From NCBI GenBank assembly GCA_016744775.1, contig JADGDS010000001.1:729508-793507 (forward strand): 64,000 bases of DNA, written 5' to 3'. Position 1 is the first letter of the stretch. Every line of letters starts with the position of its first letter. This DNA is from Candidatus Marithrix sp. (GTDB lineage Bacteria; Pseudomonadota; Gammaproteobacteria; Beggiatoales; Beggiatoaceae). Position numbers and translations under genes: made by a program. The notes under the pieces were generated by a model. The model was not told where the DNA came from. It did not search any database and saw only the letters and a list, made by a program, of their open reading frames with translations. Below are positions 26,610 through 32,322 of this stretch, piece by piece.

Positions 26610-27983
26610 TTATTCAGTGTTTTTATATTCGTTGTACATCCTAGATAATTCTTCTACCATATACAGAGGCAAGGAAAGTAACCTAAATTTTCCAGAGGCA
26701 TTGGGCAAGGAAATTGGAATTTCACATTCAGAAGGTGTATCAGCATTAAAGCGAACCCCATAATCAAGTTTTTTTTCCTGAATAAAAACATGGAGTGATT
26801 TTAGGGTACCCGTTTTGCCCGCTTTGATTTCCACCGGTATTATTTTTGAACCATAACTCAAGATATAGTCAATTTCTGCTGAAGATTGCCTCTTTTCTCT
26901 GCACCAATAAAACAACTCTGGTTCCTCATAAGATGGTCTGGCATAAAGCAAGTGTTGACCAATAAATTGTTCACATAGTGAACCTGAATTAACCAATGTG
27001 ACTTCATCAGCCGCTTCAATATCTGCATAGCTAACGCCACAAGCTTTGGTGAGTAATCCGACATCTAAAAATAAAGGCTTTTGCATCTTTTCATTGGTTT
27101 GCGCTCTTAGCGGAATACCATTGGCGGAGCTATGATAAACTGGATAATAAATCCTAGCTAATTCAAGCAAATGCAATACTTTTTTTAATTCAAAACTTTT
27201 TTCATTCGGATCCAAATTGACATATTTTAATTTTTGACCGATCTGAAAAGGCAATTTTTGAAAAACCTTTTGTATTATACTATGTTTAAAGTGGCGACCA
27301 TATTTACTAAAATCATCCCGATAGCTTAACAATATTGATTGCTTTATCATGTCAACTTCCAATAGTGAACCAGTATCCTTATAAACTTGAATCGCTTCAG
27401 GCATACCGCCAATGGCAAGATACAGTTTGAACATTTTCATTAATTCATCATGAACCACAAGCGGAAATTGCATACTAAAATGGTATTCTTCAATAAATTT
27501 TCCAAGTTGTTCTTTTCCAATGCCTTTCAAAAAATCCTTGAATTTTAATGGTCCCAAGTGCATATATTCAATTCTGCCAACCGGCATTGAAAATGAATGT
27601 TCTTCAAGAATAAAATCCAGCAAGGAACCAGCGGCAATGATATGAAGTTGGGGTAATATTTCATAAAAATAACGTAAAGTAGCGAGTACTTGTGGGGCAG
27701 CCTGAATTTCATCTAAAAAAATAAGCGTTTTGCCGGGAATGACTTTCTGCGAAGCTTTAAGTTCCAATAAGGTAATAATCTGCTTTGGATCTTTTGACTG
27801 AAAACAGGCAATGTAGTCATCATTCAATTCAAAGTTGATTTCCAAAATATCTAAGGCATAGGTTTGGGCAAACTGGCGAACAAGATATGACTTACCGACT
27901 TGCCTTGCTCCCCTAATGACTAGCGGCTTTCGTGTCTTCTTATCCTTCCACTTTCCCAGATAACTCAGCTCGGATCTTTTCAT
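26610..27983 (-). CDS. AAA_14 / DUF4143 ATP-binding protein, paralogue 1
   Basis: The 457-residue product has an N-terminal AAA ATPase (Walker A IRGARQVGKSY at 23-33, Walker B LIFLDEIQAAP near 87-97, GSLLDFILEEHSFSMPVGR). A C-terminal DUF4143 domain has a PD-(D/E)XK-like pattern: E370, D372 and VEIKAG (E385, K387). Such genes are common and mobile in bacteria and archaea, with unknown function. Two paralogues lie at 52994-54352 and 58103-59470. It abuts thiL, with 3 nt between. Confidence 0.85.
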   Translation of the reverse strand: MKRSELSYLGKWKDKKTRKPLVIRGARQVGKSYLVRQFAQTYALDILEINFELNDDYIACFQSKDPKQIITLLELKASQKVIPGKTLIFLDEIQAAPQVLATLRYFYEILPQLHIIAAGSLLDFILEEHSFSMPVGRIEYMHLGPLKFKDFLKGIGKEQLGKFIEEYHFSMQFPLVVHDELMKMFKLYLAIGGMPEAIQVYKDTGSLLEVDMIKQSILLSYRDDFSKYGRHFKHSIIQKVFQKLPFQIGQKLKYVNLDPNEKSFELKKVLHLLELARIYYPVYHSSANGIPLRAQTNEKMQKPLFLDVGLLTKACGVSYADIEAADEVTLVNSGSLCEQFIGQHLLYARPSYEEPELFYWCREKRQSSAEIDYILSYGSKIIPVEIKAGKTGTLKSLHVFIQEKKLDYGVRFNADTPSECEIPISLPNASGKFRLLSLPLYMVEELSRMYNEYKNTE

Positions 27984-28136: not shown

Positions 28137-29354
28137 TCAACTTATTAATGATTTACCAGCCTTCTGAATCGTTTCACATCGCCAGTAAAATCCATCTTCA
28201 CGTTTTACTAATAAGTTTTTCCAATATAACTTTTTCAAAAATTCATCCATCAGAATAGTTTTATTAGCTACCTTATGTGTCGATAAATCTGTTTTTAGGA
28301 GTCTTATGTGGTTTTCAGTTTGAATAAATGGCGTAAATAAATCCTGAATTTCGGCTGTTGGTATCAATTGATCGGGAAAATTCTCTACTTCTAGACTATT
28401 TTGTTGATACCAATTAAAACATATATTCAATAATTTTAAATGCCCCCCGGTAATTTCCAAGAAATATTTAGCGATTTCTGAACTTAAATCTGCATTTGAA
28501 TAACTAAATTTATAAAATAATTGAATGTCTTCATAGCTCCATTCTGGCCAATAAGATATGATTGCATCATTTAGTAAAGAATGAACGTTATCAGCGCGAC
28601 TTAATTCTTCTAGTTTCTCTCTTCCAAACAAGAGAAGATGTAATTGTTTATGACATTCGGTATGAATACTTCTTAAAATAGCCGCTAAAGTGTTTCTGGT
28701 TTCAAGCGATAAATGTTCAAAACGGCTTATAAAACAGAAATAAGGTTTTTTATTTTGTTTGACTTTTTGAATAAAAGCATTTCTAAAATCACTGCTATTA
28801 GAAATATTAGAACTAAATCCAAACAATTTGCCTAATTCAATATAAAAACTATTTTCATCTGCATAATCAGGTAATCTCACAAAACGATAACGTTCTTCTG
28901 CATAATGGTCAATAATTACTGAACGAATATAATTATCAATTAAAGGAAAATCTTGCTGAGATAACAAAATAATTGGGTAGAGATGAGCTACAGAAAATTT
29001 ATCAAGTAAAAAATTGATAAATTTTATTTTTTCTTCGGGTAGTTTTAGTTTTTGAAAACAAGGTTTAGGCGTAACAGGTAACTGAATTTTTCCACAACGT
29101 GCAGCATCAAGCAATTTTTGTCCATCTTCAACATTCATCTCAAAAATTTTTACAAGAATATGTACAACATTACAATTTTTATCACTGGGTTTGCTTTTAT
29201 TAGTGCGCCATTGATCGAACATTTCTCGATTACTTCCGCAATTTAACTTAATATTATTTTCTTTGGCATGTTTTTTTACCATGTTTGCCAAGTCTTGACT
29301 AGAGAAGCCTTTTTCTTTTACATACTTATTTAATAATTCAGAAAATTCAGACAT
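28137..29354 (-). CDS. HTH protein with a degenerate ATPase domain
   Basis: The product (405 residues from the ATG at 29354) has an N-terminal helix-turn-helix-like segment (about 1-85; FSELLNKYVKEKGFSSQDLANMV, then MFDQWRTNKSKPSDKN, then LLDAAR) of the XRE type seen in front of STAND ATPases. The next part looks like an AAA/STAND domain, with KPYFCFISRFEHL at a Walker B position and QLHLLLFGREKLEEL at a sensor position. The expected P-loop site reads ILLSQQDFPLIDNY, without the GxxxxGKT motif, so ATP binding is doubtful. The start is chosen because GAGGA lies about 8 nt upstream. It follows the WD40-STAND gene by 78 nt on the same strand. Confidence 0.6.
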   Translation of the reverse strand: MSEFSELLNKYVKEKGFSSQDLANMVKKHAKENNIKLNCGSNREMFDQWRTNKSKPSDKNCNVVHILVKIFEMNVEDGQKLLDAARCGKIQLPVTPKPCFQKLKLPEEKIKFINFLLDKFSVAHLYPIILLSQQDFPLIDNYIRSVIIDHYAEERYRFVRLPDYADENSFYIELGKLFGFSSNISNSSDFRNAFIQKVKQNKKPYFCFISRFEHLSLETRNTLAAILRSIHTECHKQLHLLLFGREKLEELSRADNVHSLLNDAIISYWPEWSYEDIQLFYKFSYSNADLSSEIAKYFLEITGGHLKLLNICFNWYQQNSLEVENFPDQLIPTAEIQDLFTPFIQTENHIRLLKTDLSTHKVANKTILMDEFLKKLYWKNLLVKREDGFYWRCETIQKAGKSLIS

Positions 29355-29379
29355 TTCTTCTTCCTCTTTTTGATAGGAA

Positions 29380-29420
29380 TCCAAGATTTATCTTGTAAAA
29401 TTTCCAAACTAAAGTTTGGA
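29380..29420. repeat. short palindromes flanking the WD40-STAND gene
   Basis: Two small palindromes, TCCAAGAT-TT-ATCTTG and TCCAAACT-AA-AGTTTGGA (29403-29420), lie downstream of the WD40-STAND gene. A perfect relative, TCCAAGATAAATCTTGGA, lies upstream of it at 32227-32244. The three may be one repeat family. Confidence 0.7.
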
Positions 29421-29432
29421 CTCCTATTTTAG

Positions 29433-32198
29433 TTATATATCTAACCCTAGAATGAGCCTTTCAATATTTTCTTCTAGTAAATTTTCTCGTAATAAAGGGA
29501 CGGCATAAATATATTGCCCATGTTCAACTTTTTTAAATACAAATTCTAAGCTTAAGCGAGCCAATGCTTTTTTCACATTTTCTCTATTATGTGTAAATTG
29601 GTAAGCCTTTAGATTATCTAACACCGTTTCTAAAGTAAAACTACCTTGTTGAACAGTAGTATAAACTATCATTTTATCTAATAGTTTTTCATTAGAACTT
29701 GGCGCAACGCCTTCCCAAGCCAAAAAAGCTTGTTGCAATTGATCATCTTGCAATACTTTATCTAGCATAGCTTTATCAATTACAGTTGTATTGTTTAAAT
29801 TAGAGACAAGCAAATGACAAATTCGCGCAATTAAATTTGCTCGCTGCCCGGTTTGTTCAATGATATATTTAGTTAATTGTTCATTTATTGAAATATTTAA
29901 TGCGTCTAAAGGTTTAACAATTAAATCTTGACAAGCTTCCTCTTCTAATTCTCCTAAAGTAATTATTTCACCAAAATTTCTAAGTGGTGAATAATATTCA
30001 AGTAGAGCCGATTCATATAAATGCCAAACACCAGCTAGAATAAAGTAACATTTGCCTTTAGTGCTTAAACTACGCAATTTATGCAAGTTAAGATAATCGC
30101 GTTGCTTTTCATATTTTATCAGTGCATCAGTTTCGTCCAATAGGAATATGTGGACTTTGTCCAAATCATCTAAGTAATTGCTAATTTGTTCAAAGTTTGT
30201 CTCCGCATTTAAATTTAAGCAATTTGCTAATTGTTCGACTATATCAGCATTGTATAAACAAAGATAATGAATCTCTAAATCTGTTCTTTTTTTATTATAC
30301 TGTAACTGTAAATAATTAAGTAAGCTTGTTTTACCGATTTGTCGCCCTCCTATAATCAAATAATTTCTTAATTGGCTACTCAGAATGTCAGAGATAATAT
30401 TAGTACGTCCAAAAAAAGATTCTTCTTTTGATAAGCCCCCAGCCATTTGATAAGGAGAAATTTTAACTAAACTCAGTTGACTCGAAACTATGCGGCTAAA
30501 AGTTTCTATTGGCGTTGCTGATAATAACCATTTGGTTAATTCAACTTCATCTGGAACAATCCATTCATTACTACGATCTTTTCCATAATAGCCTAAACTC
30601 TGCTGCTTATCTTGTTCAAGCGTAATAATAATAACTTTTTTAGTCTGAAAAATATCTTCATATTCCAATTCATGCACAATATCACTAACCAATAAATGTT
30701 TTTTCGGAAAGTAAAACAAGCAATTATCTAAGTTTAAACGGAATGGAGGTAATTTAATTAAAAATACTTGCGGCGTTTGAGGTTCAATGTCTGACATCAG
30801 ACGTTGTACTAGAATGTTAGCTTGTTCTTCGGGTGTCGCGTTAATAAATGTAATGGCTTGCTCGAATGTTTTGGGTGATATTTTACATTCAGATAATATT
30901 GTATTTAGTCGCCCGGTAATTTGCAATAATCGTTTTGCTTCTGGTAGTTGTTGCACAGAAATATTTAGCAACTCTTGTGGATTGGCAGATAGTTTTAATG
31001 TGATTGGATGTTTATAAACACGCACATAAAACCATAAAATTACAGCAATCAAAATTGATGCTACGAAAAAAAATAGACTATAAAAATTTTTTAATAAAGT
31101 TACAAAATCAACCGGAGGATTAGTTTTTAAGCAAGTTTGTTGATTATAATCACAACTTAGCCATTCTTTAGGAGTTGCACTCATTACTAATAAATCCTGT
31201 AGTTGTCCTTGCAAATCATAAATTCTTACAGTGCCATCCATTAAACTAACAGCAATTCTATCTTCTGTTTTATTTAAATCCACACGAGTAATTGTTTGAT
31301 AAATTTTGATTTCTTTTTCTATGGTTTGTTCAGGTATTTTTTGAATAGTAACTTTATTTTGAAAAGAACTAGAAATTAAGCGTTTGCCATTTTGGAAAAA
31401 AATAAGTTGGCTAGTCCAACTATCATGTTTTATTACATGGGTTAATTTTTCAGTATTTATTTCAATCAATTTAACATGACCATCTTGAAATCCTATTGCT
31501 AATAATTGTTTATCAGTACTTAATTCAATACTAGTAATAGGTAAGTTATACTGAAAAGTATTTTCAATACTTCCAGTTTTCCAATGCCAAATATTGACAG
31601 AACCGTCAAATGAACCTGAAACTAGCGATTGATTATCTTCACTAAAAATAATGTATGAAACAGCCTGTTTATGCTTTTTTAGACGCTTAACTATTTTATT
31701 TTGTTGAATATCCCATATCACAATATCGTTGCTACCTTCTTTATCAGCAAATACTGCAACCGCTAAATGTGTACCATCAGGGCTAAAAGCAACTTTCATT
31801 ATTCGCTCATGTAACGAAAAGCTTTGTATTTGTTGCATTTTATGAATATTCCATATTCGTACAATTCTATCATCATATCCTCCAGTGGCTAAAAGTGAGC
31901 CGTCAGGGCTGAATGCAACATCTATCAATAAATGTTTATGAGCAGTTAAAGTTGATAATTTGTTTTCAGCAAAATCCCAGAGATGAACCAAACCATTTTG
32001 CAAGCCCAAAGCAACTTGGGTAGGATGTTGAGGATTAAATCTAACTGTGGTTATGGACGTAGTCGCTTCTAATTTTTTAATCAGTTGTTTTGGCTTATCC
32101 GTATTCTGTATATTGAAAGTAGATTGTTTTTGACAGCCACTTAATAAAATAATGGATATTATTGCAAATAATAAAATTGGTTTAAAGATGTATCGCAT
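29433..32198 (-). CDS. periplasmic WD40 - transmembrane - cytoplasmic STAND-type ATPase
   Basis: The 921-residue product has a signal segment (about 5-21) with a lipobox-like LLSGC. WD40 repeats follow from about 45 to 335; VHLWDF, VRIWNI, IVIWDI, VNIWHW and VRIYDL mark propeller blades. A single membrane helix (about 370-392, YSLFFFVASILIAVILWFYV) leads to a cytoplasmic part with an AAA/STAND ATPase. Its Walker A is IIGGRQIGKTS (615-625) and its Walker B is VHIFLLDETDAL (682-693), followed by helical and winged-helix-like segments to the end. The layout implies a sensor outside and an ATPase switch inside. It is upstream of the HTH/degenerate-ATPase gene. The function is unknown. Confidence 0.78.
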   Translation of the reverse strand: MRYIFKPILLFAIISIILLSGCQKQSTFNIQNTDKPKQLIKKLEATTSITTVRFNPQHPTQVALGLQNGLVHLWDFAENKLSTLTAHKHLLIDVAFSPDGSLLATGGYDDRIVRIWNIHKMQQIQSFSLHERIMKVAFSPDGTHLAVAVFADKEGSNDIVIWDIQQNKIVKRLKKHKQAVSYIIFSEDNQSLVSGSFDGSVNIWHWKTGSIENTFQYNLPITSIELSTDKQLLAIGFQDGHVKLIEINTEKLTHVIKHDSWTSQLIFFQNGKRLISSSFQNKVTIQKIPEQTIEKEIKIYQTITRVDLNKTEDRIAVSLMDGTVRIYDLQGQLQDLLVMSATPKEWLSCDYNQQTCLKTNPPVDFVTLLKNFYSLFFFVASILIAVILWFYVRVYKHPITLKLSANPQELLNISVQQLPEAKRLLQITGRLNTILSECKISPKTFEQAITFINATPEEQANILVQRLMSDIEPQTPQVFLIKLPPFRLNLDNCLFYFPKKHLLVSDIVHELEYEDIFQTKKVIIITLEQDKQQSLGYYGKDRSNEWIVPDEVELTKWLLSATPIETFSRIVSSQLSLVKISPYQMAGGLSKEESFFGRTNIISDILSSQLRNYLIIGGRQIGKTSLLNYLQLQYNKKRTDLEIHYLCLYNADIVEQLANCLNLNAETNFEQISNYLDDLDKVHIFLLDETDALIKYEKQRDYLNLHKLRSLSTKGKCYFILAGVWHLYESALLEYYSPLRNFGEIITLGELEEEACQDLIVKPLDALNISINEQLTKYIIEQTGQRANLIARICHLLVSNLNNTTVIDKAMLDKVLQDDQLQQAFLAWEGVAPSSNEKLLDKMIVYTTVQQGSFTLETVLDNLKAYQFTHNRENVKKALARLSLEFVFKKVEHGQYIYAVPLLRENLLEENIERLILGLDI

Positions 32199-32322
32199 GA
32201 GTTTATTTTCTAGTTATTTTAGTTTGTCCAAGATAAATCTTGGATTCCATTATTTAGTTTTTGATCGTAATATGTATGATAAAATCAAATATTTATATTG
32301 ATTTGTACAACGGAGAAATTTT

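Follow-up and report, generated by a model that had tools for sequence, protein, structure and literature searches.

The Avs and bNACHT anti-phage STANDs are single cytoplasmic polypeptides, and the eukaryotic Apaf-1, CED-4 and plant TIR-NLRs are likewise soluble proteins of one polypeptide each, in which an NB-ARC/STAND fold is combined with WD40 or other repeats as the sensor and, in some relatives, with a TIR effector. Here we describe two same-strand genes within a 64,000-nucleotide stretch of Candidatus Marithrix sp. (contig JADGDS010000001.1, positions 729,508 to 793,507; hereafter the window) that probably encode the two proteins of a single transmembrane STAND switch: a receptor with a WD40 propeller, a membrane helix and a STAND ATPase, and a partner with a helix-turn-helix (HTH) and a STAND module devoid of a P-loop. 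As in Avs and bNACHT, the STAND switch is situated between sensor and effector, but in the pair these are carried by two proteins and are predicted to lie on two sides of the membrane; PADLOC returned no Avs match for the pair. The likeness to the eukaryotic proteins is one of fold and shows no shared function.

A two-gene organization was described for the nSTAND2 system, in which an active STAND is accompanied by an eroded one that bears effectors, most commonly GT4 or HEPN (Kaur et al., 2021; PMC8195603); the STAND modules of that system belong to the CR-ATPase/Dap3 clade and have a conserved arginine finger. Its logic is shared by the pair, which likewise consists of two genes, one for a STAND whose motifs are intact and one for an eroded homologue bearing variable effector modules. 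What appears new relative to that description is the membrane-spanning sensor and the effector set: the active STAND of the pair is predicted to span the membrane and to expose a propeller or another ectodomain outside, whereas the accessible part of the nSTAND2 account describes no membrane-spanning active partner, and in place of GT4 or HEPN the effectors comprise HTH, TIR, hydrolase and membrane segments, a contrast drawn by description. Neither GT4 nor HEPN was found in the proteins scanned, where a single glycosyltransferase match, weak and under the cut-off (E 0.001), falls in the ATPase part and is not evidence for such an effector. The iSTAND and iSTAND2 ternary systems combine an inactive STAND with exchangeable signaling domains including TIR, some near the membrane, and are built on MoxR and vWA proteins (PMC7159879; PMC8195603). 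The inactive STAND of the pair resembles theirs in carrying exchangeable signaling domains including TIR; however, MoxR and vWA genes are no conserved part of 32 diverse pair loci, and the companion is instead an active STAND receptor. A literature search for this arrangement returned the eLife 2020 and 2021 frameworks and related work only, an absence that is weak evidence of novelty, since most subscription journals fall outside the coverage of the search.

Receptor, partner and the kinship of their ATPase modules

From its sequence and AlphaFold model, the receptor conforms to the STAND/NLR-like pattern of nucleoside triphosphatases, in which Walker A and B motifs and a helical and winged C-terminus are joined to sensor repeats. 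An earlier note, made from the letters of the DNA, had proposed a 921-residue protein with a signal segment, about seven WD40 blades, one membrane helix at residues 370-392 and complete Walker motifs, next to a same-strand neighbor with an XRE-like HTH and an ATPase-like domain lacking a P-loop, and both reading frames were recovered (Table 1). The N-terminus of the receptor, MRYIFKPILLFAIISIILLSGC, reads as a signal segment in which the lipobox LSGC can be added to the earlier description. The blades match PF00400 (E 1e-32), and residues 46-328 of the model superpose on the seven-bladed WD40 propeller 5yzv (Z 37.7, root-mean-square deviation 1.5 Å); a fold search with the entire receptor gave a match list filled by propellers, and an NCBIfam scan gave generic propeller matches only. 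The membrane helix, placed at 372-395 in the model, is followed by a family motif around Y/F-x-HP. In the family alignment the Walker A motif GGRQIGKT and the Walker B motif LLDE are kept across 22 relatives, and the ATPase gives weak matches to nSTAND1 and AAA_22 (E 1e-5, under the curated cut-off).

At the position of the membrane helix, 80 of 82 homologues have a hydrophobic segment with a score above the threshold, 59 of 80 receptors have more Lys and Arg behind the helix than ahead of it, and signal segments are located ahead of the ectodomain in most receptors, including those with other ectodomain types. Owing to these signal segments and to the charge bias around the helix, the propeller is predicted to lie outside and the ATPase inside, in agreement with the topology first proposed.

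The partner was listed from a TTG, but an ATG 30 bases downstream is the more likely start, because the TTG (29384) falls inside a dispersed repeat and the ATG (29354) has a good ribosome-binding site; thus, the reading frame of the neighbor stands, with its start corrected and a C-terminal winged helix added. Its HTH gives a profile match to the solved LexA/XRE-type HTH 2kpj (E 6e-4), in line with the XRE-like assignment. The model (mean pLDDT, a per-residue confidence score, of 89) comprises the HTH, an AAA+/STAND module and the winged helix, and its closest solved folds are archaeal STAND ATPases (2qen, Z 14.9), Orc/Cdc6, TnsC, CED-4 and plant NLRs. With the P-loop indeed absent, sequence and model together indicate that the partner is a STAND fold without nucleotide-binding motifs. 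No PADLOC model fits the partner, and nothing specific to the core of the pair was returned.

When the two families were compared as profiles, the ATPase modules of receptor and partner aligned over 162 columns (E 1.6e-5). A P-loop is present in 101 of 103 receptor family members and at the expected site in none of 92 partner copies (some contigs being counted twice), where two loose pattern matches lie elsewhere or weakly in a divergent copy. Because the modules align by profile and the P-loop occurs only in the receptor, the two proteins can be regarded as the active and dead members of one family. Additionally, the divergence of receptors and partners is correlated (r 0.97, 64 pairs), also among the 23 most diverse pairs, those of the sulfur-bacteria/TIR group (r 0.84; 0 of 2000 permutations as high).

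Conservation of the pair and its exchangeable ends

The receptor alignment, when scanned against 84,980 species genomes, recovered at least 138 relatives, and the pairing counts refer to the best 80 loci plus the window (81 loci). The pair is kept together across several phyla: the partner lies within the fetched stretch at 67 of the 81 receptor loci, on the same strand in all 67, so that the pairing suggested by the earlier note holds with two clear exceptions (see below), and 12 of the remaining 14 loci are cut by contig ends. The best 80 loci belong to Thiotrichaceae, Chromatiaceae, Comamonadaceae, Oxalobacteraceae, Pseudomonas, Lysobacteraceae, Campylobacterota and Aminicenantes. The partner gene comes first at 64 loci, the receptor gene in the window and in its nearest relative (L130), and at many loci the two genes are arranged end to end or overlap by a few bases. 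No gene besides the pair is common to more than 3 of the 32 diverse loci, i.e., there is no conserved third gene.

Between genera the distribution is patchy (2/114 in a class sample, 4/150 in a family sample), and some filamentous or giant sulfur bacteria carry several copies per genome. The host genome measures 3.09 Mb and its relatives include Thioploca, Thiomargarita and Parabeggiatoa; of 57 related genomes, 15 contain the partner and 24 the cytoplasmic part of the receptor, in many cases at the same places. Flanking genes of the HTH form are shared among the Acidovorax loci and among the Pseudomonas loci, which points to vertical inheritance of this form in both genera. Phages gave no match to the pair, and plasmids gave partial, weak matches only.

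Both ends of the system vary around its core. The HTH is the commonest partner front end (69 of 92 copies); between families its conservation equals or exceeds that of the dead ATPase, and its SREAVNNWRNG segment hardly varies. It is replaced by TIR in 16 copies (TIR_2 in Pfam, E down to 1.6e-23; the W-x-x-x-E motif, relevant to the catalytic Glu of TIR NADases, is kept in most relatives shown, with Gln in L089 and L174), by an alpha/beta-hydrolase in two Campylobacterota and by membrane helices in a few copies. The front-end type changes at least four times on the receptor tree, a quick tree with some long branches, and the HTH clade of the window is placed among TIR-bearing relatives with moderate support. 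On the sensor side, the receptor family shows WD40, NHL, possibly pilin-like or no ectodomains. The short ectodomain of Comamonadaceae and Pseudomonas (about 150 residues) is weakly suggested to be pilin-like by its sequence, as 7 of 16 members match Pfam Pilin (E 0.004 at best) and pilin structures are matched with E 0.014. A signaling or conflict module would be expected to have such an anatomy, with a constant switch, a variable sensor and a variable output.

Individual loci show further peculiarities. A 1191-residue partner (L174:6264-9836) carries repeated TIR domains ahead of the dead STAND module, and one TIR pair is adjoined by a gene for an SbcC/Rad50-like ATPase (L119:12174-15518). 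In Pseudomonas, the pair is immediately followed by two large genes side by side; both are DUF4132 in L123 (11648-19091), and L170 has two that are similar to these in size. HTH partners with no receptor nearby occur in L061 and L066, in the former beside a DNA topoisomerase-like gene.

Surroundings and features of the window pair

The neighbors of the pair in the window are ordinary genes, with no defense-island context at this locus; the gene downstream (26610-27983, same strand) encodes an AAA_14/DUF4143 ATPase. A nested palindromic element, TCCAAGATTTATCTTGGA, is located between the two genes (29375-29430) and, in part, upstream of the receptor gene (32227-32250), and its intergenic copy additionally holds TCCAAACTAAAGTTTGGA. 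These palindromes were considered as binding sites of the HTH and set aside in favor of a dispersed repeat, the likelier reading because the genome has copies of the element at five further locations, mostly in inverted pairs with a spacing of about 39 bases.

Table 1. Features of the receptor and partner genes in window coordinates
Feature	Coordinates	Strand	Basis
Receptor gene: WD40, membrane helix, STAND ATPase; 921 residues	29433..32198	-	open reading frame, Pfam, family alignment, AlphaFold model
Signal segment with lipobox LSGC, residues 1-22	32133..32198	-	sequence
Seven-bladed WD40 propeller, residues 45-358, predicted outside the inner membrane	31125..32066	-	Pfam, model, fold search
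Membrane helix, residues 372-395	31014..31085	-	model, alignment, hydrophobicity score
Cytoplasmic helical and alpha/beta linker region, residues 398-595, kept in the family	30414..31007	-	alignment, model
Walker A GGRQIGKT, residues 617-624 (G617-T624)	30327..30350	-	family alignment
Walker B region with LLDE at its end (D688, E689)	30132..30149	-	family alignment
Partner gene: HTH, dead STAND module, winged helix	28137..29354 (ATG, more likely; listed frame 28137..29384, TTG, 415 residues)	-	open reading frame, model
XRE-like HTH, residues 13-94 of the listed frame	29103..29348	-	model, profile match
STAND/AAA+ module without P-loop, residues 117-340 of the listed frame	28365..29036	-	model, fold search, profile comparison
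C-terminal winged helix with family motif L-x-WRCE, residues 344-415 of the listed frame	28140..28355	-	model, family alignment

Proposed switch and rival explanations

In the two-protein switch, a cue would bind the propeller outside the membrane and activate the resting receptor ATPase; once active, the ATPase would assemble with its dead twin, probably in a mixed ring or filament, and this assembly would cluster and activate the N-terminal module of the twin. As the module of the window partner is an HTH, its output would most likely be altered gene expression or another form of DNA binding close to the membrane, whereas in relatives TIR, with an expected NAD+ cleavage, or the hydrolase would lead to growth arrest or cell death. 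The role of effector or regulator that the earlier note had assigned to the HTH neighbor gains strength from the relatives in which TIR, hydrolase or membrane segments stand in place of the HTH. We lean slightly towards regulation or alarm signaling with an HTH output for the window pair and, again slightly, towards cell arrest or death for the TIR pairs.

Several observations weigh against this switch. The charge bias is opposite in 10 homologues, with fewer Lys and Arg after the helix. Two receptors (L106 and L108) have no partner despite at least 3 kb of flank on either side, Thiotrichaceae include lone partners and lone or unlinked receptors (L061, L066, L068/L069, L108), and a few receptors (L072, L086) have neither membrane helix nor ectodomain; thus, a membrane sensor is not obligatory. 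In addition, shared ancestry accounts for part of the correlation between receptor and partner divergence, and the count of front-end changes inherits the limits of its tree.

The conservation of the HTH bears on a serious alternative, which we place somewhat short of an even chance, namely that the HTH form is a stable pair with one membrane pass that relays a surface or envelope cue to transcription, the TIR and hydrolase forms being a side branch recruited for conflict. The predominance and constancy of this module favor envelope-to-gene regulation, as do the flanks shared among Acidovorax and among Pseudomonas loci, the phage, plasmid and PADLOC results and the ordinary neighbors in the window; inheritance of the HTH form with its neighbors fits regulation at least as well as defense. 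However, TIR, hydrolase and membrane modules are swapped onto the same core in relatives, and the very patchy spread between genera resembles that of conflict systems. The same exchangeable effectors, the variable sensor around a constant STAND core, the multiple copies in some filamentous or giant sulfur bacteria and earlier theory on conflict systems in multicellular bacteria (PMC7159879; PMC8195603) would suit an anti-phage or kin-conflict alarm of the NLR type, in which phage adsorption, a foreign cell or a protein injected into the periplasm is sensed by the propeller and the partner triggers arrest or death. We rate this explanation slightly below the regulatory one; against it, the window locus has no defense-island context, the chromosomal place is conserved in Acidovorax, and the window module is an HTH without known toxic activity.

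Two other arrangements concern the parts of the pair. The partner could be a brake whose dead STAND caps the receptor ATPase and whose HTH represses its own operon only, the true output lying elsewhere; being a homologous dead twin of the receptor module with a conserved HTH, it has the makings of one, but no third gene offers an alternative output at the 32 diverse loci, and a pure repressor role is unlikely because the HTH is replaced by TIR or hydrolase in relatives, so that we consider the brake unlikely overall. Most WD40-STAND proteins reside in the cytoplasm, and here the signal segment might be an uncleaved anchor that forms a membrane hairpin with the helix and leaves everything inside. 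The lipobox in the signal segment, the single second helix, the bias of positive charge towards the ATPase and the signal segments before other ectodomains make such a topology very improbable.

The pair is therefore best described as a strong candidate for an envelope-sensing circuit of alarm or defense of a little-known kind. More broadly, it may represent an undescribed, widespread class of transmembrane NLR-like receptors, a proposition that we regard as evenly balanced, in which an outside sensor (WD40, NHL or pilin-like) controls a STAND ATPase in the cytoplasm, and this ATPase acts by way of a separate dead twin with exchangeable effectors, the STAND switch thus sensing outside the inner membrane. 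To our knowledge, known bacterial STAND defense proteins sense inside the cell. Since the family is present in culturable Acidovorax, Delftia and Pseudomonas, it is amenable to testing. A dead twin carrying interchangeable outputs would constitute a natural experiment on pseudo-ATPases in STAND assemblies, and with a STAND that senses outside, the detection of phage, neighbors or envelope damage before entry into the cytoplasm would become a testable question. If true, the arrangement would be a bacterial counterpart of a surface receptor joined directly to an NLR.

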